Origin: Acidobacteriaceae bacterium
GTDB taxonomy: Bacteria > Acidobacteriota > Terriglobia > Terriglobales > Acidobacteriaceae
Assembly: GCA_003132325.1 (NCBI GenBank)
Contig: PKXK01000188.1
Span: 8,356-44,209, forward strand
Reading direction: 5' to 3'
DNA length: 35,854 nt
Of this stretch, positions 21,525 through 35,854 are shown piece after piece. Below the pieces are notes generated by a model, which searched no databases, was not told the DNA's origin, and saw nothing but the letters and a program-made list of their open reading frames with translations. Numbering within the stretch: position 1 is the stretch's first letter; each line of letters opens with the position of its first letter. The translations under genes and the position numbers were made by a program.

Positions 21525-21947
21525 ATGCCAAAACTCCAGGTGCTGGTGCTGGACGATGAGCCGATCGTGGGCAAGCGTCTGAAACTGGCGCTCAGCAAGA
21601 TGGGCTGCGAGGTCGAAGCCTACGACGATCCCGCCCTCGCGTTTCGCCGCCTCGACGAAAAAGAATTCGACGTCGTCATCTCCGACATCGTCATGGGTGA
21701 GATTGACGGCCTCCAGGTGCTGGAGCGCGTGCGGCAGCGATTTCCCCGGGCCAAAGTCGTCATGATCACCGGCTATGCCATGATGTCCATGGCCCAAAGT
21801 GCGATGGAGAAGGGCGCTTTCGATTTCATTGCCAAGCCCTTTACCCCCGACGATCTGCGCTCGGTCGTAACACGCGCCGCCGCCGAGTTGGGCATCCCTC
21901 TGGATCAAGCGGCGGGCACGGCCCCCGCGGGAGTTTCCCATGAGTAA
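21525..21947 (+). CDS. Receiver-only response regulator
   Basis: 140 residues, a single CheY-like receiver domain: acidic pair Asp10-Asp11, phospho-acceptor Asp54 (VVISD), Thr82 (MITGY) and Lys104 (KPF). There is no output domain; a short tail follows residue 120. ATG 21525 is chosen for AGGGAG at 21510-21515 and because homology starts there; the frame is open further upstream to 21219 but has no support. It overlaps the histidine kinase gene by 8 bases, so the kinase is its likely partner. It is closely similar to the receivers at 26177 and 35490. Confidence 0.93.
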   Translation: MPKLQVLVLDDEPIVGKRLKLALSKMGCEVEAYDDPALAFRRLDEKEFDVVISDIVMGEIDGLQVLERVRQRFPRAKVVMITGYAMMSMAQSAMEKGAFDFIAKPFTPDDLRSVVTRAAAELGIPLDQAAGTAPAGVSHE

Positions 21948-23466
21948 GCCTGAGCCCGAAATTCGGGCCGCCGAGAAAGCGCTCAAGGAACGGCCCGTTT
22001 TCAGCATCCGTTTGCAGGTTTATTTCAGTGTCTTCTTTCTTTTCGCCATTGTCCTGGCCATCGGTCTTCTGACTTCCGCCACCACTTCGCGGGTCGAACG
22101 CGAGATCCATCTCTACGAAGTCACCAGCAAGTTCCTGTTCGAAGTCGACCAGGCCCGCCGCTTCGAAAAGAACTTCTTTCTGCACGGCACCAACCTCGAC
22201 GACGCCCTCGAACAGGCGCACTCGGCCCGGCGCATCTTGCGCGAGAACGCGGATGGTTTCGGAGGAATCGTCGGCCCATCGAGTTACAACCAGATCGGCG
22301 CCAGCCTCCAAGCCTACGAAGATCGCCTCACCAGCCTCTCTTCCATCCGGCGCGACGATCCCGCCCGGCTGGATGAGATTCGCAACGCCGAGGTCGACGT
22401 TCGCAAAAACGGCCGCGACATCGTCACCTTCGCCACCGATCTGGTCGAGAAGGAACGGGAAGAACTGGAGAAGATGATCTCGTTCTCCCGCCATGTGCAA
22501 CTCTACCTGCTGATCTTTCTGCTGCTCTACATGGTGGTCATGAGTTACATGCTGATCCGCCGCATCGTGGATCCGATCGGCCGCTACATGGAGTACCTGG
22601 GCCGCATCGCCCGCGGCGACTATAGCCCGATCCTGCCCCGCCGCCGCTATCGCGACGAATTCTCCGCGCTCGCCATCGCCATCAACCACATGGTCGAAGA
22701 GTTGGGCCGCCGCGAGAGCGTCCTGGTGGAATCGCACAAACTGCGCGCGGTCGGCACCCTCACCGCCGGCGTCGCTCACGAACTCAACAATCCCATCAAC
22801 AACATCACCCTCACCAGCCACCTGCTGCTCGAGGACTATGCCAGCCTCCCCGATGCGGAACGCCACGAAATGATCACCGACATCATTCACGAGGCCGAGC
22901 GCACCAAAAAGATCGTCGGCGCCTTGCTCGACTTCACCCGTCAGAGCGAGAGCAAGGTCGAACCGCTCGATCTCGCCGAGGTGGTCAAGCAGACGCTGGC
23001 CCTGTCGCACAACCAGCTTCACCTGAAAGGCGTCCGCGCCACGCTGGAAGTGGCGCCTCATCTGCCCTTGGTACACGGCGATTCCCAGCAACTCTCGCAG
23101 GTTGTTCTGAATCTAGTGCTCAATGCCGTGGACGCTTCTCCCAAAGGAGGCACCATCGAAGTCTCCGTCCACCGCGCCAAAGACGAAAACTTCGTCGAAA
23201 TTCGAGTCCAGGACCACGGGACGGGAATTCCCAGTCACATCCTGCCCTCGATCTTCGACCCCTTTTTCACCACCAAGCCCAAGGGGAAAGGCGTCGGACT
23301 GGGGCTATCGATCTGCAAAGGGATTTTGAGTCGGCACGGCGGGGAACTGACGGTGGAAACGGAAGTAGGTAAAGGCGCGACGTTCTCCGTGCAACTGCCG
23401 GTGACCAGCTTTCCCGTGGATTTCGGCGTGATGAAGGAAGAGATCGAGAAACGCGGGCCGCAGTAA
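21940..23466 (+). CDS. HAMP-domain sensor histidine kinase
   Basis: 508 residues. Two membrane helices (about 25-47 and 187-206) flank a helical periplasmic sensor (RRFEKNFFLHGTNLDDAL at about 73-90) resembling the helical-bundle sensors of chemoreceptors. A HAMP domain (207-258) leads to HisKA with phospho-acceptor His280 in GVAHELNNP. The ATPase domain shows the N box LNLVLNAVDAS, G1 DHGTGI, F box FDPFFTT and G2 GVGLGLSI. The start overlaps the regulator stop (ATGAGTAA). It is a clear paralogue of the kinase at 29656-31263, including the shared GDYSPILPRRRYRDEFSALA stretch after HAMP. Signal unknown. Confidence 0.94.
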   Translation: MSKPEPEIRAAEKALKERPVFSIRLQVYFSVFFLFAIVLAIGLLTSATTSRVEREIHLYEVTSKFLFEVDQARRFEKNFFLHGTNLDDALEQAHSARRILRENADGFGGIVGPSSYNQIGASLQAYEDRLTSLSSIRRDDPARLDEIRNAEVDVRKNGRDIVTFATDLVEKEREELEKMISFSRHVQLYLLIFLLLYMVVMSYMLIRRIVDPIGRYMEYLGRIARGDYSPILPRRRYRDEFSALAIAINHMVEELGRRESVLVESHKLRAVGTLTAGVAHELNNPINNITLTSHLLLEDYASLPDAERHEMITDIIHEAERTKKIVGALLDFTRQSESKVEPLDLAEVVKQTLALSHNQLHLKGVRATLEVAPHLPLVHGDSQQLSQVVLNLVLNAVDASPKGGTIEVSVHRAKDENFVEIRVQDHGTGIPSHILPSIFDPFFTTKPKGKGVGLGLSICKGILSRHGGELTVETEVGKGATFSVQLPVTSFPVDFGVMKEEIEKRGPQ

Positions 23467-23871: not shown

Positions 23872-25170
23872 ATGAAGTATCTGAAGATGATGGCGATCGC
23901 ACTTATATTGATGTTGGACATGCCGGGCTTGGCCCAGACCAACGCCCAGCGTGCGATGGAAGTTGAGATTCTCTTGCGTGCCTACACCACGCTGACCACG
24001 CTCCACCTGCCACCCAGCGACCCTAAGCGCTTGGCTGAAGCGGCCGTTCGAGCCCTACCCCGGGGTGCTGCGCCCGTACCGACCTTCACACCAGATGCTG
24101 AGACCGATTCCCGGCTGTTGGAACGATACGCCCGTGCAGTGTTCGCGGAGCAGAAGCCGGGGGACACATGCTTGTGGGGAACCGTCAAAGCCATGATAAC
24201 CGCCACGGAAGACCCCCACACGATGCTGTTTTCACCCGAGCAGCTTAAAGCCGCTGAGCCCTTTCTCGATGGACTGCCGTCTGTAGACATTGGGGCGGCG
24301 ATGGGCTTTTTACCGGACGGACGGTACGTCGTAACGGATGTGGATCCTTCTAGCCCCACAGGCAAGGCTGGGTTGAAACCCGGGGATGTGGTCCTCGCGA
24401 TGGATGGGAGGGAAGCTTCCACGTTGAATCGTCGGGATTTCTTCTTCCCCTTGGCGCATGGAACTAAGTTGATATGGAAGGTCCGCCGCCCCGGTCTGAA
24501 TGATCCCGTGGAATTGAAGGTTACACCGTTCACCTGGCTTGCCCCCTTGGTCGACAGCAGGATGTTGGAGGACAGCGTGGGCTATGTGCGATTGAAATTT
24601 TTCCTGGAAACCAAGGATGCCCTTAGGGACAGTGCCTCGTTGGTTCGCGTGCGACTCGAGCAGCTAGCCCACGCTGGCGCACGATCCTTCGTGTTCGACC
24701 TGCGGGGCAACCCTGGCGGAGGTGGAGTTGGCAAAGTGTTTTCCATCTTTTCGGAGGGAGAACCAGTGCTGCTCTTCCGGGACCGAAATGGAAAGGACGA
24801 GGTGTGGCACCGGGAAGGGCAAACAGGGACCGGATCCTTGCCGGTTGTTCTCCTTGTGGATAGCGGAACCTTCTCGGCAGCCGAGTTCACAGCCTATGCC
24901 CTTCAGCAATACAAGTCCGCCATAATCTTGGGGTCACAAACGGGCGGAGGACTGTCCCTTCCAGAAAATCTCGAGTTGGCGGACGGGTACGTGCTGCATT
25001 ACTCCGGAAAAGCCGTGGTCGGACCCGTCTGTCATTGCGTTGCCACCAGCCAACGCGTAGTTCCGGATGTCGTACTGCCCGAGCGAACTCCCGAGGAACT
25101 GGCAAGGGGCGTGGATCGGATTCTAAGCGCGGCTGTCGCAAAGGCGAAGGAACTAAGAACGAGCAAGTAG
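23872..25170 (+). CDS. Secreted PDZ-S41 (C-terminal-processing-like) peptidase
   Basis: 432 residues with a signal peptide (about 1-21, MKYLKMMAIALILMLDMPGLA). An N-terminal helical part is followed by a PDZ domain (about 138-220; GKAGLKPGDVVLAMDGRE) and an S41 core (about 230-415) with the family strand FVFDLRGNPGGGG and the nucleophile region VDSGTFSAAE (Ser335). The Lys that serves as general base 25 residues later in bacterial CtpA/Tsp-type enzymes is absent (Gly360, in TGGG), so it may use a different catalytic arrangement, as in tricorn or IRBP-type S41 members. ATG 23872 is fixed by AGGAGG at 23860-23865. It stands alone, with no co-directional neighbour nearby. Confidence 0.85.
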   Translation: MKYLKMMAIALILMLDMPGLAQTNAQRAMEVEILLRAYTTLTTLHLPPSDPKRLAEAAVRALPRGAAPVPTFTPDAETDSRLLERYARAVFAEQKPGDTCLWGTVKAMITATEDPHTMLFSPEQLKAAEPFLDGLPSVDIGAAMGFLPDGRYVVTDVDPSSPTGKAGLKPGDVVLAMDGREASTLNRRDFFFPLAHGTKLIWKVRRPGLNDPVELKVTPFTWLAPLVDSRMLEDSVGYVRLKFFLETKDALRDSASLVRVRLEQLAHAGARSFVFDLRGNPGGGGVGKVFSIFSEGEPVLLFRDRNGKDEVWHREGQTGTGSLPVVLLVDSGTFSAAEFTAYALQQYKSAIILGSQTGGGLSLPENLELADGYVLHYSGKAVVGPVCHCVATSQRVVPDVVLPERTPEELARGVDRILSAAVAKAKELRTSK

Positions 25171-25215
25171 TCTAATAACAAACGAATGGGTTCTGTACTA
25201 TCATTTTGGTAAGTA

Positions 25216-25238
25216 AGGATGGGCAGTTAAGCCATCCT
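25216..25238 (+). terminator. Weak hairpin after the S41 peptidase gene
   Basis: AGGATGG and CCATCCT form a 7-bp stem around a 9-base loop, 45 bases after the peptidase stop. No T run follows, so Rho-independent termination is doubtful. Confidence 0.35.
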
Positions 25239-25417
25239 ACTAGCGCAGTGCGTCAAACAGATCGACATTTATAAGTCCCCGGTTTCCTCTGTGCCCTCTG
25301 TGGTTAAAGCCTTTGACCTCCTCGCCAGACACCACGGATCACGGCGGGTGGGCCACTTTAACGCGGAAGTATAACCCGGGTTTGTCTTTGAAGGTGTACC
25401 GAAAAACTGGGGGTGCG

Positions 25418-25444
25418 CCCCTTCTCGCGCTTTTCGAGAAGGGG
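25418..25444. repeat. 10-bp stem-loop, extragenic hairpin element
   Basis: CCCCTTCTCG and CGAGAAGGGG pair perfectly around a 7-base loop. The flanking GGGGGTGC resembles hairpin elements I recall recurring between genes in acidobacterial genomes. No second copy is present in this window. Confidence 0.5.
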
Positions 25445-25967
25445 GCCTCCCGAACCGCCGACATCGTTCGACTCCGCAAAAAGTCATGACGCAAGGGAAG
25501 CCCCCTCCCCTGGCCTCGCTCTTGTCAAGCTTGACTTTTTGATCGGGACGAAATTGGGGTCCGACGCCGGGACGAAGCAAAAGCCCCCATCCCAGAGCCC
25601 GAACTTGCAGCAAAACGGCGCTAAGTTAACCAGAAAAGTCCAAAAAATCCTTCCCGCCAACCCACCACCAAAGAATTTATTTGCGGGACGAACAAACGGA
25701 TTTTCGCGGTTTTCGAAACGTGGGGTTTGGGCACCGCGCCCGCGCGCTAATATTTCGCAATCTGTCCTGAACCCGGCACTCGCCGATGAAACGAACCGAG
25801 ATACATCGGGCAAAACCTCTTTAGGTACTTCTCGATTTTGGAAAATCTTGTCAAGTAGCTGTATCAATGATTTTCCCCATAACTCGTTGATTCGTTTGAC
25901 AAAATAAACTCGGGAAAGTTGTCCGGGGTGGGAAATGGAATTGATATAATAGAAGTAGAGAGTAAGA

Positions 25968-25996
25968 ACAGGGTGCGGAGCTATCCCGCACCCTGT
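25968..25996 (+). terminator. 11-bp stem-loop followed by T-rich sequence
   Basis: ACAGGGTGCGG and CCGCACCCTGT pair perfectly around a 7-base loop, and TTTGTTGT follows on the plus strand. It has the form of an intrinsic terminator, but it lies about 800 bases from the nearest upstream plus-strand gene, so it may be a repeat element or end an unseen transcript. Confidence 0.5.
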
Positions 25997-26118
25997 TTGT
26001 TGTCGTGAGGGGAAGGGCGTCCTAGCTAAGTCCTTATTCCATAATATTTTGCATATAACCCCTGTAAAACCAAAGATTTGGAGCGTTTTTGGCTGTAACT
26101 CTTTGATTCCAATAGCGA

Positions 26119-26138
26119 GGGGGGGGCGGGGGTACCCC
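26119..26138. repeat. G8-C-G5 tract joined to GGGGTACCCC palindrome
   Basis: A run of eight G, one C and five G leads into TACCCC, so bases 26129-26138 form a perfect palindrome. It lies about 40 bases beyond the stop of the response regulator at 26177. I recall similar G-run/palindrome elements between acidobacterial genes; function unknown. Confidence 0.5.
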
Positions 26139-26176
26139 TACTGACTGGTTAGCGCACTGGGGAAAAGTCCACGGAT

Positions 26177-26557
26177 CTAAACCGACTTGGCCGCGGCAAT
26201 CGCGCGGCTAATGGCATCGCGCAGGTCTTGCGGTTTGAACGGCTTGGCGAGGACCTCGAACGCGCCTTTCGACACCGCCTCGCGGGCCAGTTCCATGGTC
26301 GCGTAGCCGGTGATGAGCACGACCTTGGTTCGGGCCGACTTCTTGCGCGCCGCCTCCAGTACGTGCAGCCCGTTCACCTCGTCGATGCGCATGTCGGTCA
26401 CCACCACGTCGAACTCTTTGGCGGCAATGCTGGCCAGCGCATTCTTTCCCACCATCTGCGACTCCACCTCGTAACCGTCTCGTTCCAAGGCGGGCCGGAG
26501 CCGTTTGTTCACGATCTCCTCGTCATCGACAAGAAGGATACGCAGTCTCTCGCTCAT
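26177..26557 (-). CDS. Receiver-only response regulator
   Basis: 126 residues, one CheY-like receiver: acidic pair Asp11-Asp12, phospho-acceptor Asp55 (VVVTD), Thr83 (LITGY) and Lys105 (AKPF). There is no output domain. It is the last gene of the minus-strand operon, 47 bases after the TauE/SafE-like transporter. It shares long stretches with the receiver at 21525 (EFDVV, ITGYA, KGAF, KPF). No kinase is in its own operon; the divergent kinase at 29656 or that at 21940 could serve it. Confidence 0.92.
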   Translation of the reverse strand: MSERLRILLVDDEEIVNKRLRPALERDGYEVESQMVGKNALASIAAKEFDVVVTDMRIDEVNGLHVLEAARKKSARTKVVLITGYATMELAREAVSKGAFEVLAKPFKPQDLRDAISRAIAAAKSV

Positions 26558-26604
26558 GGACGGTCACCCTTCGCGGCATGAATGGCTGCGATGGCCGGGA
26601 ACAG

Positions 26605-27702
26605 TCATGCCGGCGTTTTAGCTTCCTTCAAATCCGGCTCCACCACAATGGTGGCATACATCTTTCGTCGGCGCACGTACGCGCGCACCACCTGCACCAG
26701 AATCACTCCCGCCCCGGTGATGCCGCTGACGAAGAGCAGCGCTTTGCTGGTTCCGTTGAAATAGCGGTCCCAGGCGGGGTTCAGCTTGACCCAGCCGAGC
26801 TGCCGCAGGTAGGTGGGGACGGCGACGGCCCGGGAAACCACGCAGAACAAGATGATCAGGCAAGTTACCAGCCGGATCATCACCTCTTTCACCACCTTGG
26901 TGCCGTAGGTGCCGATGTGCACTCCGATCAGCGACCCCAGGTAGAGCAGCATGGTCAGCCGGATATCGACCTTGCCTTCAAACACATAGTTCAGCGCTCC
27001 CCAGCCTCCCATGAATACCGCGAGATACAACTCCGTGCCCGCGGCCACCGCCGAGGGCATGCCGAATACGTAGATCATGGCGGGCACGCCGATGAACCCG
27101 CCCACGCCAATGGTTCCGGCCAGGTAGCCGGTGGCCAGTCCAACCGTGAGCACGATCCACAGCGACACGCTGACGTCGGCCACCGGGAAATGGATCATGG
27201 GCGCCAGCTTCAGCCGGTTGAGATAGTCGGAGATGCGCCGCGAGGGCCCGGCTACGTCGCTCTTTGACGCTCCGATAATGTCGCGCAACATGGAAAGCGA
27301 TACGATGGCCAGGATCGAAACAAAGACCGCGCTGATATAAAGGTTAACCGCCGTTTCCTTGCGAACCGCGCTGCCCACGGTGTGCCCGGCAATCAGTTCG
27401 GTGTTGACCCACACCGCAAAACGGACTCCGATAGCAGCGGTGGCGAGCATGAACACAGCCATTTTCTTGTCGACGTTGCCCATTTCACCGTGCTTGCGGG
27501 AGCCGACCAGCGCCTTACCGAACTTGTGCGTGATGTTGGAACCGACCGCGATGACTCCAGGCACCCCGAGGTTCATCATGCCAGGGGTCATGAAGAACGC
27601 ACCGCCGCTGCCGATGAACCCGCTCAGCGTGCCGCCGATGAGACCCAGCAACACGACTTGCAACATCGTCGATGCGTTCAGCGTGTAAGGAAATAAATCC
27701 AT
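26605..27702 (-). CDS. TauE/SafE-family membrane transporter
   Basis: 365 residues with about eight hydrophobic helices and the two internally related halves typical of the family: LLGLIGGTLSGFIGSGGAFF near the N-terminus and GYLAGTIGVGGFIGVPAMIY near residue 210. The family exports sulfite, organosulfonates or related anions; the substrate here is unknown. Unlike its neighbour at 31235, the first glycine motif reads GSGGAFF rather than GVGGGFL. The C-terminus has an extra helix (LLFVSGITGAGVILVQVVRAYV) and a charged cytoplasmic tail. It lies 67 bases after the cytidylate-kinase-like gene and 47 before the receiver gene, in one operon. Confidence 0.88.
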   Translation of the reverse strand: MDLFPYTLNASTMLQVVLLGLIGGTLSGFIGSGGAFFMTPGMMNLGVPGVIAVGSNITHKFGKALVGSRKHGEMGNVDKKMAVFMLATAAIGVRFAVWVNTELIAGHTVGSAVRKETAVNLYISAVFVSILAIVSLSMLRDIIGASKSDVAGPSRRISDYLNRLKLAPMIHFPVADVSVSLWIVLTVGLATGYLAGTIGVGGFIGVPAMIYVFGMPSAVAAGTELYLAVFMGGWGALNYVFEGKVDIRLTMLLYLGSLIGVHIGTYGTKVVKEVMIRLVTCLIILFCVVSRAVAVPTYLRQLGWVKLNPAWDRYFNGTSKALLFVSGITGAGVILVQVVRAYVRRRKMYATIVVEPDLKEAKTPA

Positions 27703-27769
27703 GCCGCCTTCTCGTCTTTCGGCGCCGCTGCTGTCGTCCGCGCGCCCGTTCCGCTAGTCCATCATTCCG

Positions 27770-29296
27770 TCATTCCATCTTGATCAACTTCAGCAGGTAG
27801 TGCACGGCCTTGCCGGAAAAATACGCCACGATAGGAATGAACAGCACCACGCTGATGGCTGCCGTTATCCGCCACGCCATCTCCGGCCGTGTGAGGAATG
27901 CCAGCACCACTCGTTGATGGGTGAAAACCGCCACGTAGATCAATGCGGTCACCGCCGTGCACAGCAGCATGGTGACCAATTGCGCGGCGCCAAACAGAAA
28001 GCGCTCCTGCATATCTTCGGCTTGGACCACGGAGACTCCCCGCAACCGTTCCTGCAAGGTGCTCGTCAGCTCTCGACTCAGCCGGGTGCGCGCCGCCTTC
28101 CCTTTGTCGAGGAAGACTTCTCCAATCACCACCAGGCTGTAGGAGATCGAGCGGTCGATCGCGTTGGACAAGTTGTTGACCGAGCCTTGTACCACCATCC
28201 GGCCGCCCGCCTTGCCCAGCTTGACCAACTCGTTGAAGGTTTCCTCGACGCCGCCCTCGCGCAACTGGCTAGCCTGCGGGTCTGCCGGCACATCGTCCTC
28301 GATGCCGCCGGTTTCTCGCGTTGCGGCGGGGGTAGCGCCGGCGCCGTTTTGGCCGGCCGTCGCTTGCTCGACGACCGATGAGGTCTCGGCCGGCTCCAGC
28401 CGGAGCAGTTCCACCGCGGCTCCCCATTTCTTGGCCACCTCGACTATGTGTTGAAAAGTTTCGCCCGTGGGGGTGAAGTGCTCCTGGATCCACAGGATTC
28501 GGCTTGCCGCCATGGTGGCGAAAATATGATGCGCCCCAGGGACTTTTTCCACCACCGGGACGATCGACTCGGCCACCTTGAGGTGGCGTGGCTGATAGGA
28601 AATCGACACGTTCCCACGGTCTGCCTGCACCTGGAAACTGGCATAGTAAGTGCGGTCGTCTTCGGCGAGGGCCACGCGGCAGCGGCTGGCCAGCAGCAGG
28701 TTCTCCAGGGCAACGCGCGCCGCCGGCGTCTCGTGAAACTCAGGAAGCTGAGCCACCGCGCAGAAGGCCGACGCCACGTTCTCCACGTTGGCGTGCTCCA
28801 CGTTGATCAGGAAGTCGTAGCTCCGCGATTGCTCCCAGTCGATGTTGTAGAACGTCCGCACCCACTTGCGGCGGTCCTCTTCCAGTTCGTCGATGTATTT
28901 CTTGGCTTTGGCGCGATCCAGGCCGAGGCGGTTGGTCACCGATTTAATGCGGGTCTCCATGTCGGTGACCACGCGCAGGCGCAGGACGTGCGGAATGCCC
29001 TTGAACAGCAAATGCCCGGTCAGTCCGTGATACACGAGCGGGCCGGAGAGCGCCATTTCGGCGAGCGAACTGGTGACGAACGACTGGTAGTGTTCCCGTT
29101 CCAGCATCATGCGTTCGTTCAGTCCACGCGGATTGACGCACGCCATCTCCAGCTTGCCAGCGGCGATGCCGGCAATGGTTGCTCGCTCCAGCATCTCCTC
29201 GCGGCCGATGCAGGCACACCCCAGCTTCCGCGCCAGACTCTCGGCGAAAGCCTTGCCGCAGCTGTAACTACCTCGCGATACGCAGATAAGTTGCAT
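27770..29296 (-). CDS. Membrane-anchored cytidylate-kinase-like protein
   Basis: 508 residues. Residues 1-180 match the cytidylate-kinase-like family (PF13189 type): a P-loop-like SRGSYSCGK at 7-14, the GREEMLERA segment, VYHGLTGHLLFKGIPHVLRLR at about 88-107, and a charged linker ending in DFLIN. Residues 190-300 form an unrecognised alpha/beta region, perhaps BON-like. Residues 300-350 are a low-complexity Ala/Glu/Gly linker, followed by an alpha/beta segment (352-425) and two membrane helices (about 434-458 and 476-498). ATG 29296 is chosen because the kinase fold begins MQLICVSRG; an in-frame start at 29356 adds 20 unlikely residues. It is the first gene of the minus operon. A signalling rather than CMP-kinase role is inferred. 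Confidence 0.85.
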   Translation of the reverse strand: MQLICVSRGSYSCGKAFAESLARKLGCACIGREEMLERATIAGIAAGKLEMACVNPRGLNERMMLEREHYQSFVTSSLAEMALSGPLVYHGLTGHLLFKGIPHVLRLRVVTDMETRIKSVTNRLGLDRAKAKKYIDELEEDRRKWVRTFYNIDWEQSRSYDFLINVEHANVENVASAFCAVAQLPEFHETPAARVALENLLLASRCRVALAEDDRTYYASFQVQADRGNVSISYQPRHLKVAESIVPVVEKVPGAHHIFATMAASRILWIQEHFTPTGETFQHIVEVAKKWGAAVELLRLEPAETSSVVEQATAGQNGAGATPAATRETGGIEDDVPADPQASQLREGGVEETFNELVKLGKAGGRMVVQGSVNNLSNAIDRSISYSLVVIGEVFLDKGKAARTRLSRELTSTLQERLRGVSVVQAEDMQERFLFGAAQLVTMLLCTAVTALIYVAVFTHQRVVLAFLTRPEMAWRITAAISVVLFIPIVAYFSGKAVHYLLKLIKME

Positions 29297-29394
29297 GGCG
29301 CAACCCGCTGACGATTGTGGAATCCCACCGCCAAACCATCTGGCGGCGGCAAACAATTCTCTTGAAATGGTGCGCCTTGGCCGTCAGGTTCACC

Positions 29395-29408
29395 GTGACA
29401 AACGTCAC
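29395..29408. promoter_or_regulatory. CRP/FNR-type palindrome, site 1
   Basis: GTGACAAACGTCAC is a perfect 5-bp inverted repeat with a 4-base spacer. It equals the CRP core GTGA-N6-TCAC. It lies about 100 bases upstream of the minus-strand operon start. Confidence 0.55.
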
Positions 29409-29462
29409 CAGTGAACGTGAGTTCCGGCTCCGCTCCGGGCGAGGGACAGCGCCCCAAGCGCG

Positions 29463-29476
29463 GTGACACAGGTCAC
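29463..29476. promoter_or_regulatory. CRP/FNR-type palindrome, site 2
   Basis: GTGACACAGGTCAC has the same GTGAC-N4-GTCAC form, centred 68 bases from site 1, which is close to a whole number of half-turns of DNA. Two matching sites between divergent operons favour a shared regulator. Confidence 0.55.
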
Positions 29477-29655
29477 GGAAGCTCGTTCTACCATGTGGTA
29501 AACCTACTGCGGTGCCGTCGTGTGTGTCCGAGCGCTCCGCCAGTTGGTTGTGCAACGATGGAGATCCACGGCAAGCCGCCCCACTGTACCAAGCCGCCCG
29601 GTAACGGTGTGGGGTCTCGCGCACGGGATATTGGAGTCCACCTCGGAGTTCTGGG

Positions 29656-31263
29656 ATGACGGCGCTCACCTCCCCAGGCTCGGACCCGCGAAACTCGAAT
29701 GCCGTGTCGCTGCCGTACCCCGGCGTGGCCAGCCTGGCCGACGAAGACCGGCGACTGCTCGCCGACGCGGAGCGAGCCCTGGCCGATCGCCCGAATATCT
29801 CCATGAGCCTGCGCATCGGCATGAGCATGTTGCTGTGCTTTCTGCTCGTCGCCGGAGTCGTGGTCGCCTCGATGGTGCTGGTCTCAAGAGTCGGCACGCT
29901 GCAGGAGTTTCTCGACAAGGCGAGCACCTATGCGCTGGAGGTAGAGAACACCCGGCGTTATGAAAAAAACTACCTCCTCTACGGGACGGGTCTGGACGAT
30001 GCGCTCACGCAAGTGCAAGCGGCGCACAATCAGCTGCACAGCATCAAGGCCAGCATGGTCGAAGTTACCGGCCCGCAGGTGTTCGAGCGCATGGAAGAGA
30101 ACCTCGAGCAATACGACCGCTCGCTCGAGCGTCTGGCCGAGTTGGCGAGACAGCCCGGCGCTGCTTCGCAGGACGAACGCACCCAGGTCGAAAAGGAGCT
30201 TAGACGGCACGGCGCGCAGCTCATCGCCGATGCCACCGATCTGCTGGAGCGGGAGCGGCTTCGTCTCCGCACCGCCATTCGCACCTCGTGGATTGTGGCG
30301 GCCAGTTCGCTTCTGTTCATCATGCTCGCCATGGCCGTGGTCACCTTCACGCTGACCCGCCAGGTCTCCAATCCCTTGCGCCGGTTCGCCGGCTATACGG
30401 AACGGATTGCGGCTGGCGACTTTTCGCCGATTCTGCCGGCGCGCCGCTATCGCGACGAGTTCTCGCGGCTCGCCGTAGCCATCAATCGCATGTTGTTCCG
30501 GCTGAAAGATCGCGAGGCGCAGCTCGCCCGTCACAGCCGCATGGCTGCAGTCGGAACCCTGACCGCCGGCATTGCTCACGAACTCAACAATCCCCTCAAC
30601 AACATTAGCCTCAACGCCGAGGCGCTCCACGAAGGTCTGAACCGCTACACCGACGATCAGAAGCTGAAAATGCTGGCCGACGTCGTCAGCCAAGTCGAGC
30701 GGGCAAGCGCCACCGTGAGGAATCTGTTGGATTTCACGCGCGTCGAGAAGCCGGTGGTAGTCTCTTTGTCGGTGGAAAATGTGGTGCGCGAGGCGCGGCG
30801 GCTGGTGGCCAACGAAGCCGAAATCAACCGCGTGGAGTTCAACCTCGCGCTGCCGCCGGACCTGCCGAAGGTGCAGGGCAATCCGCGCGACCTCCAGCAG
30901 GTGTTCTTGAATCTTTTTCTGAACGCGATCCAGGCTATGCCCAACGGAGGAGTGCTGACGGTCCGGGGCCAGGCAACCGGAGCTTCTACGAACGACCGAG
31001 CGCTGGAAGTTGAGGTGACCGATACCGGCATTGGCATTCCCGAAGAGAACCTCGGTTCCGTCTTCGATCCTTTTTTTACGACCAAGGAAGTGGGCGCCGG
31101 AACCGGGCTCGGCCTGGCCGTAAGCTACGGGATCGTCGAGAAGCACAACGGGACGATCACGGTGCGCAGCAAGCCCGGGGAAGGCACAACCTTCACAGTC
31201 CGCCTTCCAATTTCTTCCATCGAGGGAGGTGTAGGTGCATCTCTATCTTCCCATCGCGGGTAA
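29656..31263 (+). CDS. HAMP-domain sensor histidine kinase
   Basis: 535 residues. A 50-residue cytoplasmic N-terminus precedes membrane helix 1 (about 52-76); a helical periplasmic sensor with RRYEKNYLLYGTGLDDAL (about 100-117) leads to helix 2 (about 210-233). HAMP follows, then HisKA with phospho-acceptor His308 (GIAHELNNP), and the ATPase domain with LNLFLNAIQAM, DTGIGI, FDPFFTT and GTGLGLAV. It is paralogous throughout to the kinase at 21940-23466. ATG 29656 was chosen on GGAG upstream and on matching the paralogue's N-terminal RxLxxAExAL pattern. It opens the plus operon and overlaps the next gene by 29 bases. Likely partner: the receiver at 35490. Confidence 0.94.
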   Translation: MTALTSPGSDPRNSNAVSLPYPGVASLADEDRRLLADAERALADRPNISMSLRIGMSMLLCFLLVAGVVVASMVLVSRVGTLQEFLDKASTYALEVENTRRYEKNYLLYGTGLDDALTQVQAAHNQLHSIKASMVEVTGPQVFERMEENLEQYDRSLERLAELARQPGAASQDERTQVEKELRRHGAQLIADATDLLERERLRLRTAIRTSWIVAASSLLFIMLAMAVVTFTLTRQVSNPLRRFAGYTERIAAGDFSPILPARRYRDEFSRLAVAINRMLFRLKDREAQLARHSRMAAVGTLTAGIAHELNNPLNNISLNAEALHEGLNRYTDDQKLKMLADVVSQVERASATVRNLLDFTRVEKPVVVSLSVENVVREARRLVANEAEINRVEFNLALPPDLPKVQGNPRDLQQVFLNLFLNAIQAMPNGGVLTVRGQATGASTNDRALEVEVTDTGIGIPEENLGSVFDPFFTTKEVGAGTGLGLAVSYGIVEKHNGTITVRSKPGEGTTFTVRLPISSIEGGVGASLSSHRG

Positions 31264-32149
31264 TAGCGTCAACGTATTCTTGATGATTGGCCTGGGCGGA
31301 TTGGTGGGGTTCCTGTCAGGCCTGTTTGGCGTGGGCGGCGGTTTTCTGATGACGCCGTTGCTGATGATGTACGGGATCCCGCCCACGGTAGCGGCGGCTT
31401 CGGATTCGAACCAGATTGTGGCCGCCTCCGCGTCCGGTTGCTACACCCATTTTCGCGCTAAGACCATCGACGTCCGCATGGGCGTGCTCATGCTGGTGGG
31501 CGGCATCGCCGGTGGGACGTTGGGGGTTCAACTCATCAAGGTTCTGCGCCGTCTGGGGGAGGCGGATTTTGCCATCACCGTGGTCTATGTGCTGATGCTG
31601 GGGGGCATCGGCTCCTACATGTTCTTCGAAAGTTTGATCGCGCTGCGGGGGCGCCCGTCACGGGCTGCTGCTCCACGATCGCCGATCTATCGGCGTTTGG
31701 TCGGGTCGCTTCCTTTCAAGGTTTACTTTCCCCGGTCCAAGGTGACGATCACCGCGCTGATGCCACTCCTGCTCGGGACGCTGGTGGGCACGCTGGCGGC
31801 CATCATGGGAGTGGGCGGCGGATTTATCATGGTGCCCATTATGATCTACCTGCTGCGCATGCCCATGCATGTCGTGGTCGGCACCAGTCTTTTCCAGATC
31901 TTATTTACCTGCATCAATGTCACCGTGCTGCAGGCGCACTTCAATCACAGCGTGGATTTTGTACTCGCGCTGCTGCTGCTGCTCGGTTCGGTGGTGGGGG
32001 CGCAGATCGGCATACACTTCGGCCGGCGGCTGCGGGCCGACCAACTCAAGATCCTGATGGCGGTGTTGGTGTTGGGCGTGATGGTGAAAATGCTGCTCGG
32101 GTTGCTCTTGCGGCCGGAGTTCCTCGTCGCCTACAAGGGGGGCCACTAA
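31235..32149 (+). CDS. TauE/SafE-family membrane transporter
   Basis: 304 residues with about eight hydrophobic helices and two repeated halves: LVGFLSGLFGVGGGFLMTPL at about 23-42 and LAAIMGVGGGFIMVPIMIYL at about 190-209, the family glycine motifs. A polar loop (about 140-165) separates the halves. The start is GTG 31235, with AGGGAGG at 31223-31229 inside the end of the histidine kinase gene (29-base overlap, so coupled). The family exports sulfite, sulfonates or related anions; substrate unknown here. It is followed after 4 bases by the TIGR02186-like gene, a pairing I also recall from alphaproteobacteria. Confidence 0.9.
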   Translation: MHLYLPIAGNSVNVFLMIGLGGLVGFLSGLFGVGGGFLMTPLLMMYGIPPTVAAASDSNQIVAASASGCYTHFRAKTIDVRMGVLMLVGGIAGGTLGVQLIKVLRRLGEADFAITVVYVLMLGGIGSYMFFESLIALRGRPSRAAAPRSPIYRRLVGSLPFKVYFPRSKVTITALMPLLLGTLVGTLAAIMGVGGGFIMVPIMIYLLRMPMHVVVGTSLFQILFTCINVTVLQAHFNHSVDFVLALLLLLGSVVGAQIGIHFGRRLRADQLKILMAVLVLGVMVKMLLGLLLRPEFLVAYKGGH

Positions 32150-32153
32150 AGCC

Positions 32154-32945
32154 ATGCGGCATGCCAGCGTCGCAGCCATCGCCCTCGCAATTTTCTCAGT
32201 CTTGCCCCGGCCCGCCGCCAGTCAGACCGCGAGCGTGACAGGCGATCTCATGGTCGTTCCCGAGCGCGTGGAAATCGACCTTGCCTACAACGGAGCTAAC
32301 ATAGAAGTGGGCGCTGAAGTGCCGGCCGGGTACGAGGCGGCGGTGAGGCTCATGAGTCGTTCCGAACGGCTGGAGTTGAAAAAACTCGGGAAAAAGGCGG
32401 GACTGCTTTGGATGGGCGCGGGCACCGTTACCTTTGAGAACATACCAGTTGTCTACCAGGTGCTCAGTACGGCGCCGTTGGCGGATCTTGGACCGCCGGC
32501 CTTGCGCGCTCAGTGGATGCTGGGCTACGAGTCGTTGATTCCAGATCACGCTCCCGGGGCTGACTTGCGCGGAGAGCTGGTTGGATTGAAGGAGCACGGC
32601 GGGCTTTTTGCGCTACGCGAGGGAGCCTTGATGCGGAGAGGGGAAAGTGCTTCGCTCGTCGCTACCGGGGCCGACGCCCCGCAGCGGTTGCGCGGCACCT
32701 TCCGCTTGCCCGCCTCGGCGCCGGCCGGCGACTACTCCGTCGATCTTATTGGTTTCAAGGACCAGCGCGCCGTTCACCTGGCCAGTGCTACTCTGCATAT
32801 CGAGCATGCCGGAGCGGTAAAGATCATGAGACATCTGGCGCTCGACCACGGCCTGACTTATGGCGGCGCGGCATCCTTGATCGCGATTGTCGTCGGCCTG
32901 CTGACGGGCGTACTGTTCCGGTCGAAATCGAATGAAGGGCACTGA
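32154..32945 (+). CDS. TIGR02186-like (Alph_Pro_TM) membrane protein
   Basis: 263 residues: a signal peptide (about 1-23, ending AAS-QT), an extracytoplasmic beta-rich domain (about 25-225), and one C-terminal membrane helix (about 239-256, GGAASLIAIVVGLLTGVLF). Family-like features are VPERVEIDLAYNGANIEVGAEV, GLLWMGAGTVTFENIPVVYQVLSTAPL, GLFALREGALMR, and FRLPASAPAGDYSVDLIGFKD. The family is known mainly as a putative transmembrane protein adjacent to TauE/SafE genes and has no established biochemical role. It may be an accessory subunit of the transporter encoded 4 bases upstream. It precedes the PEP-synthase-like gene by 11 bases. Confidence 0.85.
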   Translation: MRHASVAAIALAIFSVLPRPAASQTASVTGDLMVVPERVEIDLAYNGANIEVGAEVPAGYEAAVRLMSRSERLELKKLGKKAGLLWMGAGTVTFENIPVVYQVLSTAPLADLGPPALRAQWMLGYESLIPDHAPGADLRGELVGLKEHGGLFALREGALMRRGESASLVATGADAPQRLRGTFRLPASAPAGDYSVDLIGFKDQRAVHLASATLHIEHAGAVKIMRHLALDHGLTYGGAASLIAIVVGLLTGVLFRSKSNEGH

Positions 32946-32956
32946 GGGGGGCGACG

Positions 32957-35506
32957 GTGAGATTCGCGGATCTATTCCGCAGCGCGCGCCGGGCTGACGT
33001 CGAGTTGCTGCGAGCGCGCTTTCTCAGGTTTCGCAGCCTGCTCGAAAATAATAATCGCGTGCTCTGCCTGATCGCCGATGCCAACGAAAAGCTCGGCGGC
33101 GAATACCTCTTCGACACCCAGTATCTCCTGTCCCTGGAAGCACAGTTGGGCGAGGCGGTGACCGCTGTGGTCCGCGACCTTGCCGAGATGTCCGGCAATC
33201 GCTACCCGACTCTTGCTCTCCAGTTCGAACGGATGCGGGCGGCGGTGCGGGCCAGTCTCAAGCCGCACCAGATCGATCCGAACTTGCCGCTCACCCTCAC
33301 CCTCGACGAACTGGGCACGGAACTCGCCGATGTCGTGGGAGAGAAGATGGCGCGGCTGGGGGAGATTCGGCGCCGGCTCGCGCTCCCGGTGCCGGACGGA
33401 TTCGTCATCACCGCGCGAGCGTGTGATCTGGTGCTGGCGCATCCCAAAGTCGCCGGCGAGTTCGAGAAGTATCGCGCCGGCAGCGAAGGCGCGGCCGCCT
33501 TGCTGCAAGCAGCGATCCTTGCGTCGGAACCACCCGCGGAAGTCGCCAGAGCCATCAAGGAAGCTCTGAAGCCGTTCAGCCGGAATGCCAGGTTCGCGGT
33601 ACGCAGCAGTGCGCTCGGAGAAGATGCCGATCTTACCTTCGCGGGGCAGCACACAACCATCCTGAACGTGCCGCGCGAGCGCGTGGCGACGGCTTGGCTG
33701 AAGGTGGTCGCGAGCCTGTTTTCGGAGCCGGCGAGTGGCTACCGGCGCGGCCATGGCCTGTCCTCCGCCGCCGGCGAAATGGCAGTGGGGTGTCTTCTCA
33801 TGGTCCCAACTTCGGCCAGCGGCGTGCTCTATTCCGTCGATCCCAATGCGCCGGAAAGCGGTGCCATGATCGTTTCCGCTGCGCGCGGCCTCGGCGTCCT
33901 GGTCGTCGAGGGGCGAGGCTCCGTGGATGAGTTCAAGCTCTCGCGTCACGCGCCCCATCAAGTTCTCGCACGCCAGATCGCGGACAAGCAGGAGATGTGC
34001 GTTCCGCTCGACGAAGGAACCCACATCGCGCCCGTACCTGCCGAACTGCGCCGCGCGCCCGCGATTACCGACGACACGCTCGCCGCTCTTGCCGACTCCG
34101 CCCTCAGAATCGAACGGCACATGAGATGCCCGCAGGATATCGAGTGGGCGGTTGGCCACGATAGCAGTCTGGTCGTGCTGCAAGCACGGCCCTTGCGCCT
34201 GCCACCCGCCGCGCCGCATCCGGCGGACGAGATCCTGTCGGCCTGCACCCGCCACCGCGTGCTCATGCCCGGCCACGGTGAGGTGGCCTGTCGCGGAATC
34301 GGCGCCGGGCGGGTGTTCCTGGTGGGGGCCGACGAAGCGACCGATGGCTTCCTGCCCGGCGATGTGCTGGTGACCCGGTTTGCCTCCCCCCGCCTCTCCG
34401 CGCTCGTTGCCAGCGCCAGCGCTTTGGTGAGCGATGTGGGGTCAGTGACCGGACATCTGGCCACCGTGGCCCGCGAATATCGTGTTCCCGCCATCGTGGG
34501 AACCCGGGACGCCACCGAACTGCTCCCGGCGGGAACGGTGATCACGGTCGACGCCAATGAGAACACCGTTTACGAGGGAAGCGTGGAGGAGTTGCTCCGC
34601 TATCAACTGCTGCGGAGTCAGCCCTACGAGGAGACGCACGAGTTCCGCGCTTTACGCCGCATGTTGAGGCACATCTCGCCGCTCCATCAAAGAGACCCCA
34701 GCTCTCCCGACTTTGAGCCCGAACACTGCCGTACCTACCACGATATTATTCGCTTCGCTCACGAGCGGGCGCTCGCCGAGTTGAGTCATCTGGGCGAGTT
34801 CCAGCTCGAGGGCAGCAGTGCGCGGGCGCTCGATCTGGATATCCCGCTGGACCTCGTCCTCGTCGATCTAGGCGGAGGCATCGCCTCCAATGCCCGCGGC
34901 AAGGCCGTATCCCGAAGCCAGGTTGCTTGCCGGCCGCTGGAGATTCTGCTGCAAGGCTTGCTTGCTCCCGGCGTTTGGTCGACCAATCCGGCCGAGATGG
35001 ACCTCGATGGATTCATGGCCAGCGCTACCCGCGCGGGGCCGCTGACGTCGCCCGGCGGCGACGCGCTCCGGCGCAACGTGGCCATCGTCTCCGCCGACTA
35101 CCTGAATCTGAACCTTAGAGTCGGATACCATTTCAACGTGGTCGACTGCTATTTGGGCGAGAATCCCGAAGATAGCTACATCTTCTTCCGCTTCGTCGGA
35201 GGCGTGACCGATGTCACGCGACGCACCCGGCGAGCGCGCCTGCTGGCGACCATTCTTTCCCAGCAAGGATTCACGACCGACCTCAGCGGCGAGCTGATCG
35301 TCGGGCGGCTGCAAGGCGTGCCCCAACCCCTCTGCGAAGAGCAACTGCGCATGGTGGGCCGCCTGATCGGGTTCTCGCGGCAGTTGGATATCCTGCTGCG
35401 CGACGATCGCACCGTGGATCAGCTGGTGAACGCATTTCTCGAAAGCAGATTTCATATGACCATCGATACTCTTATGAAGGAGCGTGACCATGCCGACGAA
35501 CATTGA
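32957..35506 (+). CDS. PEP-synthase-like protein: PPDK N-domain, swivelling His domain, novel C-terminus
   Basis: 849 residues. Residues 1-115 are helical (LLENNNRVLCLIADANEKLGG). An ATP-grasp PEP/pyruvate-dikinase N-domain (about 120-415) has PVPDGFVIT, FAVRSSALGED (VRSS 215-218) and QDIEWAVGHD...VLQARPLR. The mobile phosphohistidine domain (about 425-550) has SVTGHLATVAREYRVPAIVG with His500; canonical TSHAA is changed to TGHLA. The usual C-terminal TIM barrel that binds PEP is missing; instead there is about 300 residues of a different domain (EFRALRRMLRHISPLH, YHDIIRFAHERALAEL, VDLGGGIASNARGKAV, NVVDCYLGENPEDSYIFFRF). It is therefore likely a phosphotransfer or signalling relative rather than a gluconeogenic enzyme. 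GTG 32957 has GAGGGGGG just upstream. The next gene overlaps it by 17 bases. Confidence 0.85.
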   Translation: MRFADLFRSARRADVELLRARFLRFRSLLENNNRVLCLIADANEKLGGEYLFDTQYLLSLEAQLGEAVTAVVRDLAEMSGNRYPTLALQFERMRAAVRASLKPHQIDPNLPLTLTLDELGTELADVVGEKMARLGEIRRRLALPVPDGFVITARACDLVLAHPKVAGEFEKYRAGSEGAAALLQAAILASEPPAEVARAIKEALKPFSRNARFAVRSSALGEDADLTFAGQHTTILNVPRERVATAWLKVVASLFSEPASGYRRGHGLSSAAGEMAVGCLLMVPTSASGVLYSVDPNAPESGAMIVSAARGLGVLVVEGRGSVDEFKLSRHAPHQVLARQIADKQEMCVPLDEGTHIAPVPAELRRAPAITDDTLAALADSALRIERHMRCPQDIEWAVGHDSSLVVLQARPLRLPPAAPHPADEILSACTRHRVLMPGHGEVACRGIGAGRVFLVGADEATDGFLPGDVLVTRFASPRLSALVASASALVSDVGSVTGHLATVAREYRVPAIVGTRDATELLPAGTVITVDANENTVYEGSVEELLRYQLLRSQPYEETHEFRALRRMLRHISPLHQRDPSSPDFEPEHCRTYHDIIRFAHERALAELSHLGEFQLEGSSARALDLDIPLDLVLVDLGGGIASNARGKAVSRSQVACRPLEILLQGLLAPGVWSTNPAEMDLDGFMASATRAGPLTSPGGDALRRNVAIVSADYLNLNLRVGYHFNVVDCYLGENPEDSYIFFRFVGGVTDVTRRTRRARLLATILSQQGFTTDLSGELIVGRLQGVPQPLCEEQLRMVGRLIGFSRQLDILLRDDRTVDQLVNAFLESRFHMTIDTLMKERDHADEH

Positions 35507-35854
35507 TGTGATGGTCCTTGACGACGAGCCCACCGTGTGCGAACGCCTCAAGGACTTTTTTGAGAAGGACGGAATGAAGGTGGAAACCTTCACGGAAAGC
35601 AGCAGGGCGGTCGAGCGGCTGGCGCAGCAGCGATTTCACGTCGTGGTCACCGACCTGAAAATGAAGGGGCCCACCGGCATCGACGTCCTGGTCGCGGTCA
35701 AGAACCAGAATCTTCCCACCGAAGTCATCGTCATTACTGGCTACCGCACCATGGATGTCACGCGCGCGGCGGAGTGCGTGGGAGCTTATGCCTTCCTGGA
35801 CAAGCCGTTCCGTCTGGAGCAGTTGCGCGACTTAGTGAAGAAGGCGGCAAAAAA
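35490..35854 (+). CDS. Receiver-only response regulator, cut by window end
   Basis: At least 121 residues, running off the right edge. A CheY-like receiver: Asp11-Asp12, phospho-acceptor Asp55 (VVVTD), Thr83 (VITGY) and Lys105 (DKPF). ATG 35490 is supported by AAGGAG at 35477-35482 and lies inside the end of the PEP-synthase-like gene (17-base overlap), so the two are coupled. By similarity to the receivers at 21525 and 26177 it probably ends soon after the edge without an output domain, but that cannot be seen. It is the natural partner of the kinase at 29656. Confidence 0.9.
   Translation, partial: MPTNIDVMVLDDEPTVCERLKDFFEKDGMKVETFTESSRAVERLAQQRFHVVVTDLKMKGPTGIDVLVAVKNQNLPTEVIVITGYRTMDVTRAAECVGAYAFLDKPFRLEQLRDLVKKAAK

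Follow-up and report, generated by a model that had tools for sequence, protein, structure and literature searches.

The 35,854-nucleotide stretch of DNA analyzed here (the window), from assembly GCA_003132325.1 of an Acidobacteriaceae bacterium, raises the question of what is served by two divergent operons at positions 26177-35854 that bring together TauE/SafE transporters, stand-alone receivers, a sensor histidine kinase and relatives of phosphoenolpyruvate (PEP) synthase and cytidylate kinase. Because these genes are found mostly in carriers of dsrA, we suggest that they form an overlooked part of sulfur-compound handling in sulfite-reducing bacteria, built around what we read as a dikinase with an undescribed C-terminal domain. 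A large share of carbon turnover under anaerobic conditions is driven by dissimilatory sulfate reduction, whose core enzymes, Sat, Apr and Dsr, are well known; how sulfite and sulfate are moved in these bacteria, and how an imbalance is sensed, is poorly known.

An earlier note, made from the DNA letters, had described two divergent, tightly packed operons with these families. All eight genes were confirmed as open frames at the coordinates listed below, and their families were matched with Pfam and NCBIfam. The minus-strand operon runs in the order CK-like, TauE1, RR1, and the plus-strand operon in the order HK, TauE2, TIGR02186-like, PEPS-like, RR2.

26177-26557, minus strand: RR1, stand-alone receiver (PF00072, 92.5 bits, E 2.4e-26, residues 7-116 of 126)
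26605-27702, minus strand: TauE1, TauE/SafE (TSUP) transporter, 365 aa (PF01925, 114.2 bits, cut-off 32.6, E 9.7e-33)
27770-29299, minus strand: CK-like (cytidylate-kinase-like) protein (PF13189, 97.4 bits, cut-off 28, E 1.4e-27)
29300-29655, no strand: divergent promoter region with two palindromes GTGAC-N4-GTCAC (pattern count)
29656-31263, plus strand: HK, sensor histidine kinase (HAMP/HisKA/HATPase_c, Pfam)
31235-32149, plus strand: TauE2, TauE/SafE (TSUP) transporter, 304 aa (PF01925, 165.4 bits, cut-off 32.6, E 2.3e-48)
32154-32945, plus strand: TIGR02186-like protein (PF09608, 117.8 bits, cut-off 24.5, E 7.8e-34)
32957-35506, plus strand: PEPS-like (PEP-synthase-like) dikinase, 849 residues (PPDK_N 221.1 bits, PEP-utilizers 61.1 bits)
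35484-35852, plus strand: RR2, stand-alone receiver, 123 aa, reaching the window edge (PF00072, 86.9 bits, E 1.3e-24)

The plus-strand operon is tightly packed: the HK and TauE2 genes overlap, as do the PEPS-like and RR2 genes, and the gaps on either side of the TIGR02186-like gene are 4 bp (to TauE2) and 11 bp (to PEPS-like). RR1 (126 aa) and RR2 (123 aa) have no output domain, PF00072 being the sole family over the cut-off. Below, G, C and L numbers are our handles for genomes, contigs and loci.

Conservation of the gene order in relatives

Named genomes were scanned with an alignment of the C-terminal domain of the PEPS-like protein, and the best 80 of 525 coding stretches (among 562 candidates) were kept. 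Since only the best matches were retained, the 80 loci are the nearest relatives and not a random sample, and many are truncated by contig ends. At least one receiver is encoded in 73 of them, a histidine kinase in 58 (three loci with hybrid kinases were counted separately), a TauE protein in 54 and a TIGR02186-like protein in 51; universal stress proteins (USPs) occur in 49, long regulators in 31, CK-like proteins in 8 and YeiH-type putative exporters in 4.

The order of the genes is conserved as well. A TauE gene lies directly upstream of the TIGR02186-like gene in 48 of 51 cases, the remaining 3 being at the end of a stretch. This pair directly precedes the PEPS-like gene in 36 of 97 cases, and a receiver on the same strand adjoins the PEPS-like gene in 72 of 97. 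Pairwise distances among the TauE, TIGR02186-like and PEPS-like proteins were correlated over 36 triplets (Mantel r 0.82, 0.86 and 0.91; permutation maximum 0.19, n=999), a correlation made without an unrelated-gene control and to which common species history may contribute. The earlier note had proposed one linked, conserved system with genes co-occurring beyond chance, and had placed similar gene sets in deltaproteobacteria. These proposals were borne out: the set recurs in the 80 named loci and in Acidobacteriota, with receivers adjoining the TauE, TIGR02186-like and PEPS-like genes, and deltaproteobacteria are represented in the named-genome scan. The C-terminal domain of about 300 residues, the paired promoter palindromes and the dsrA association go beyond that note.

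Association with dsrA

For each phylum, the same genome sample was searched twice, for the C-terminal domain and for dsrA, and each sample includes its own center genome. In Acidobacteriota (n=247), where the domain was sought with a single-protein query (E<=0.001), dsrA was counted in 23 genomes, comprising 21 over the cut-off and the fragmentary genes of G136 and G245; weaker matches to related reductases elsewhere were not counted. All 11 domain-positive genomes carry dsrA, compared with 12 of the 236 without the domain (Fisher 3e-13). PF09608, the family of the TIGR02186-like protein, was found in 12 of the 247 genomes, 11 of them with dsrA. In Nitrospirota (n=148; domain by alignment query at E<=1e-10; dsrA at E<=1e-45 in 64 genomes, 61 of them over the cut-off), dsrA is present in 34/38 domain-positive and 30/110 domain-negative genomes (Fisher 1e-11), and in Desulfobacterota (n=203) the corresponding figures are 73/78 and 28/125 (Fisher 2e-25). 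Removal of the own or center genomes left overlaps of 10/10, 33/37 and 72/77 for Acidobacteriota, Nitrospirota and Desulfobacterota, respectively (Fisher 3e-12, 2e-11 and 4e-25). Among the 49 genomes behind the named loci, 41 carry dsrA (40 over the cut-off), and according to their record titles these include Myxococcota, Armatimonadetes, Gemmatimonadetes, Planctomycetota, Zixibacteria and Deferribacteres. Because the domain is present in 73 of 101 Desulfobacterota genomes with dsrA and in 5 of 102 without it, an anaerobic lifestyle alone is probably a poor explanation.

Physical proximity was also observed. The domain and dsrA lie on one contig in G058, G018, G245 and G109, at nearest distances of about 13-18 kb. 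In G245 the TauE gene of the operon is divergent from aprB, with start codons about 1.2 kb apart; this gene is split between L124 and L140, and both parts match TauE2. In the source genome, DsrA, DsrK, AprB and AprA are encoded over the cut-off on contig C70; the genome also encodes a second DsrK-like protein, below the cut-off. The source genome is a metagenome-assembled genome (MAG) with 6.65% contamination, and the near relative G247 (locus L038) carries both the cluster and dsrA.

The PEPS-like protein and its C-terminal domain

The PEPS-like protein consists of an N-terminal region of about 110 residues, an ATP-grasp domain (PF01326, residues 125-414), a swivelling phosphohistidine domain (PF00391, residues 467-535, with His500) and an unnamed C-terminal domain (residues ~540-849). 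At E<=0.01, Pfam listed only PPDK_N and PEP-utilizers and no PEP/pyruvate barrel in the whole protein, which agrees with the earlier description of a PEP-synthase relative lacking the barrel. The scores against the NCBIfam models PEP_synth (258.8 bits, cut-off 739.75) and rifampin phosphotransferase (202.4 bits, cut-off 999) both fell short.

We aligned 80 PEPS-like sequences, namely the window protein and those 79 of 97 relatives that are 820-959 aa long. Residues K130, R216, E222, E386, E396, Q409, R411 and H500 are identical in 80/80, and the same eight match PEP synthases of solved structure. The phosphohistidine transfer that the earlier note had envisaged is consistent with this conservation of the residues expected to carry a phosphoryl group from ATP to histidine.

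The C-terminal domain has an invariant set of its own, H595, D596, R599, H602, E603, H725, R756, R759 and D811, present in 80/80; for the first five this is partly built in, because HDxxRxxHE served as the pattern in the genome scan. In 16 Acidobacteriota sequences found without that pattern, these five residues are present in 16/16 and R756 in 15/16. The C-terminal 310 residues gave no Pfam model at E up to 10 and no significant match to PDB sequences (best E 0.15), and a search of plasmids with the domain returned no match. The structure model of the domain (mean predicted local distance difference test [pLDDT] 83.1) had no Foldseek match at E<=0.001 and reached a VIA-align Z of only 5.6, so no fold was assigned. 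We read the PEPS-like protein as a probable active dikinase with a putative, undescribed acceptor.

This reading can be set beside known dikinases. PEP synthase and pyruvate phosphate dikinase share the ATP-grasp and swivelling histidine domains with the PEPS-like protein, with identity at the compared residues, but the latter has a domain of about 300 residues in place of the PEP/pyruvate barrel. The dikinases Rph and PigC/RedH likewise join an ATP-grasp and a histidine domain to a non-PEP acceptor domain; the acceptor domain of Rph is the middle one of the three, whereas the PEPS-like order would be ATP, histidine, acceptor domain.

On a short contig (L122, G000:C46) the source genome has another, more divergent copy of the PEPS-like domain, with 35% identity. 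Three Desulfobacterota genomes, G725, G732 and G762, have 9-11 matches of the C-terminal domain each, which suggests expansion into several roles.

TauE2 and the TIGR02186-like protein

The TIGR02186-like protein has an N-terminal hydrophobic helix, a beta-sandwich part and a C-terminal helix, the last of which we read as a membrane anchor. Its score against NCBIfam TIGR02186 (54.9 bits, cut-off 255.25) marks it as a relative and not an equivalog. Its structure model (mean pLDDT 91.3) gave a single Foldseek match at E<=0.001, to yeast NPC2 (8.2e-4; TM-scores 0.23/0.36), and Ig-like matches with Z up to 8.4; none of these hinted at a function. No literature on TIGR02186 was found among open-licence PMC papers. 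A plasmid search with this protein returned one weak match, in Shinella, where on a megaplasmid (L144:6742-8492) a TauE gene whose product is close to TauE2 (E 1.1e-88) overlaps the TIGR02186-like gene by 4 bp; the Shinella record is unannotated at this place.

TauE1 and TauE2 alike share PF01925 with the TauE/SafE sulfite exporters (TSUP). A survey of sulfate reducers reported many TSUP proteins, deemed functional prediction not feasible, and described a conserved TSUP clade B in 25/44 genomes (Marietou 2018, PMC5840216); the TauE homologue AF1562 has been suggested to serve sulfite import (PMC3949148).

The CK-like protein and the second operon

The start of the CK-like gene was taken as the ATG at 29299, and the frame is open to a TTG at 29356. 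The protein has a kinase-like domain, a middle region and C-terminal hydrophobic segments that we take, from reading the sequence, as putative membrane segments. The middle region aligns with the BON part (E 2.9e-10) of a shorter homologue (L039:7356-8168); Pfam gave no BON match in the window protein itself. Its score against the (d)CMP kinase model TIGR02173 was 25.7 bits, below the cut-off of 102.1.

All loci in which a CK-like gene precedes TauE come from stretches retrieved by their PEPS-like domain. Directly before TauE, long CK-like proteins of about 500-600 residues are encoded in the window and in L039 (Myxococcales), L129, L135, L136 and L137, and also in L123 and L133, where the stretch ends within the TauE gene; the CK-like gene of L038 lies at the edge of the locus and what comes next is out of view. 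A receiver gene directly follows the pair in the window, L039, L129, L135 and L136, and not in L137. The CK-like protein, which the earlier note had counted as a member of the system, kept that place in the window and in 8 of the 80 loci and proved not to be universal, set against USPs in 49 of the loci. In L038:1324-5040, a locus with a 96% identical C-terminal domain, the two divergent operons are separated by an insertion of about 3.4 kb, which contains two short genes of the CK-like type, one DUF202-like gene and one frame without a label.

Palindromes in the divergent promoter

Two perfect GTGAC-N4-GTCAC palindromes lie in the divergent promoter, at 29395-29408 and 29463-29476 (0.02 expected in the whole window), and their core, GTGA-N6-TCAC, is of the CRP/FNR type. 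A third perfect palindrome in the window (35204-35217) is coding, inside the PEPS-like gene. The source genome contains 23 sites, compared with 2 for the reversed pattern used as a control. One of these is 56 bp ahead of the dsrA open frame and another 465 bp ahead of the aprB open frame, which is also preceded by a second, looser site; on contig C70 a third perfect palindrome falls within a called frame near dsrK. G247, a close relative, has one site before dsrA and two before aprB, and its locus L038 has one perfect and one looser site before the CK-like gene, the start of which was placed by homology, and a looser site before HK. A looser palindrome is upstream of dsrA in G007, and no palindrome closely precedes dsrA in G073 or G121. 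The sulfur connection made in the earlier note is upheld by these promoter palindromes, common to dsrA and aprB, as well as by the co-occurrence with dsrA. The site before dsrA (L138:10830) sits between dsrA and a divergent frame, L138:11015-11815, whose product looks like a siroheme-synthase-type protein.

Across 128 upstream regions of the cluster, 12 rows were obtained, representing 9 distinct looser sites; 5 of the 9 are in the window or L038, and the palindrome was rejected as a general feature of the cluster. A comparable motif has been described for HcpR, TTGTGA-N6-TCACAA, upstream of sat and apsAB in Desulfovibrio (PMC545781). The published motif and the window palindromes have the same core, GTGA-N6-TCAC, but the outer bases of both window sites differ from the full motif.

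Proposed function and alternative explanations

We give roughly even weight to the proposal that the cluster is a Dsr-associated module for sulfur-anion transport and homeostasis, under His-Asp signaling and with an ATP-dependent phosphotransferase. We infer its substrate, transport direction, acceptor and receiver target, as well as a role in sulfite/sulfate homeostasis, in the following terms. The module would be a conserved accessory of bacteria running dissimilatory sulfite/sulfate reduction. TauE2 would act with the membrane-anchored TIGR02186-like protein as a sulfur-anion transport unit, and the anion moved over the inner membrane would most likely be sulfite or a related anion. The HAMP kinase would phosphorylate the stand-alone receivers on sensing a signal that arises at the membrane or beyond it. 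The PEPS-like protein would use ATP to form phospho-His500, releasing AMP and Pi, and would pass the phosphoryl group to an acceptor held by its C-terminal domain; the neighboring receiver may gate this enzyme or couple it to the transporter. In Acidobacteriota and Myxococcota, the divergent operon of CK-like, TauE1 and RR1 would make up the module's second branch. The membrane system of the earlier note, in which phosphoryl transfer would control the export of an anion or sulfur compound, was upheld in part: such control of the transporter, the export direction and a sulfur anion as substrate stay putative.

A more far-reaching version, which we put forward tentatively and regard as rather unlikely, is that many dsr bacteria have an undescribed ATP-to-histidine phosphotransfer step, in which a receiver-gated dikinase, bearing a novel acceptor domain and linked to a TauE/TIGR02186-like carrier, phosphorylates a metabolite or protein new to dissimilatory sulfate/sulfite reduction. 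If so, this step would tie ATP/AMP status to sulfur-anion traffic. A module that follows dsrA over several phyla is a concrete, testable gene set. It includes a phosphotransferase that appears active and a domain that no Pfam model covers, and it would improve the annotation of proteins that probably carry names derived from PEP synthase or cytidylate kinase at present. We recognized no description of this system in open-licence PMC literature on combinations of TauE, USP, PEP synthase and dsr, which is not proof of absence.

Several observations weigh against a sulfur-anion module tied to dsrA. The dsrA genes of G136 and G245 are fragments below the cut-off, and the strict overlap in Acidobacteriota is 9/11 (p 2e-9). 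In Planctomycetota (n=246) the domain occurs in 3 genomes and dsrA in 4, and the single overlap is the search center; minus that genome the overlap is 0/2 (Fisher 1). The domain was found without detected dsrA in 8/49 genomes behind the named loci (G249, G263, G267, G274, G283, G291, G294 and G295), in 4/38 Nitrospirota (G295, G324, G370 and G378) and in 5/78 Desulfobacterota (G283, G727, G776, G794 and G844). Conversely, 28/101 Desulfobacterota and 30/64 Nitrospirota genomes with dsrA do not have the domain. No correction for shared ancestry enters the Fisher tests, and draft MAGs make up many of the genomes. On the Shinella megaplasmid the TauE and TIGR02186-like genes occur without a PEPS-like gene found in that 16-kb stretch. 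Beyond the window and its close relative, palindromes are seldom seen ahead of the cluster; other sites adjoin apparently unrelated genes or lie inside frames, so the regulator is probably global.

Three other explanations were weighed. The cluster may instead serve a general oxyanion or energy stress response, in which the kinase senses stress and USPs or CK-like proteins, with an anion carrier, protect the cell; it would accompany dsrA because sulfate activation leaves cells vulnerable to oxyanions such as molybdate. The USP-like genes in 49 and YeiH-type putative exporters in 4 of the 80 loci fit such a response, as do the molybdate-specific fitness effects of the divergent cluster DVU0539-0545 of Desulfovibrio vulgaris, described as encoding a kinase, a regulator, two USP homologues and a putative sulfate exporter (PSE) (PMC10102598). 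The two clusters have in common two divergent operons, a histidine kinase with a regulator, an anion-exporter family and stress proteins, and by analogy this supports the idea that clusters of kinase, stress-protein and anion-exporter genes matter in sulfate reducers. However, DVU0539-0545 as described has a transporter of another family, PSE in place of TauE, and a DNA-binding regulator where the window has receivers only, and its description includes neither a PEPS-like nor a TIGR02186-like gene (PMC10102598). Pfam found neither the USP nor the PSE family among the ten window proteins scanned, and we hold a general stress response to be unlikely, though a serious contender.

Dikinases interconvert ATP and AMP plus Pi, and PF13189 is a family resembling nucleoside monophosphate kinases. 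The PEPS-like and CK-like proteins could be enzymes of AMP/ATP economy that recycle the AMP released by adenosine 5'-phosphosulfate (APS) reductase or store a phosphoryl group on a metabolite, with signaling and transport merely co-regulated. The intact ATP-site and histidine residues and the divergent neighbor aprB in G245 agree with this; the tight pairing with receivers and TauE/TIGR02186-like genes and the up to 11 domain matches per genome would be left unexplained, and the CK-like protein scores far under the (d)CMP kinase cut-off (25.7 against 102.1 bits). We judge it improbable. Least of all do we favor ordinary two-component and transporter genes that are neighbors without a joint function: TauE, HK and RR are each abundant families, but a fixed order over many phyla and correlated divergence make chance adjacency very improbable.

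Neighboring genes and further observations

At 21525-23466 of the window, the genes of a receiver and of a second histidine kinase overlap, and the sensor region of HK is common to this upstream paralogue (21940-23466) and to 43 of the 79 kinases of the 80 related loci; this receiver/kinase pair may feed another input into the system of the two operons. Beyond the window edge, the same contig has another receiver-only gene (L036:258-596), followed by genes that read as putative purL and purF. Rfam gave nothing at gathering score over 25000-35854, and the count of sigma-70-like promoters and terminators was not above that of shuffles. Five proteins of the cluster matched 0 families of PADLOC at E up to 0.01, and an anti-phage defence system was rejected as a reading. 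In 22 of the 80 loci there are proteins similar to the product of L055:13012-15820, for which Pfam found MshEN and repeated DUF202 domains; proteins of this type are often encoded in pairs, ahead of a kinase and a receiver.

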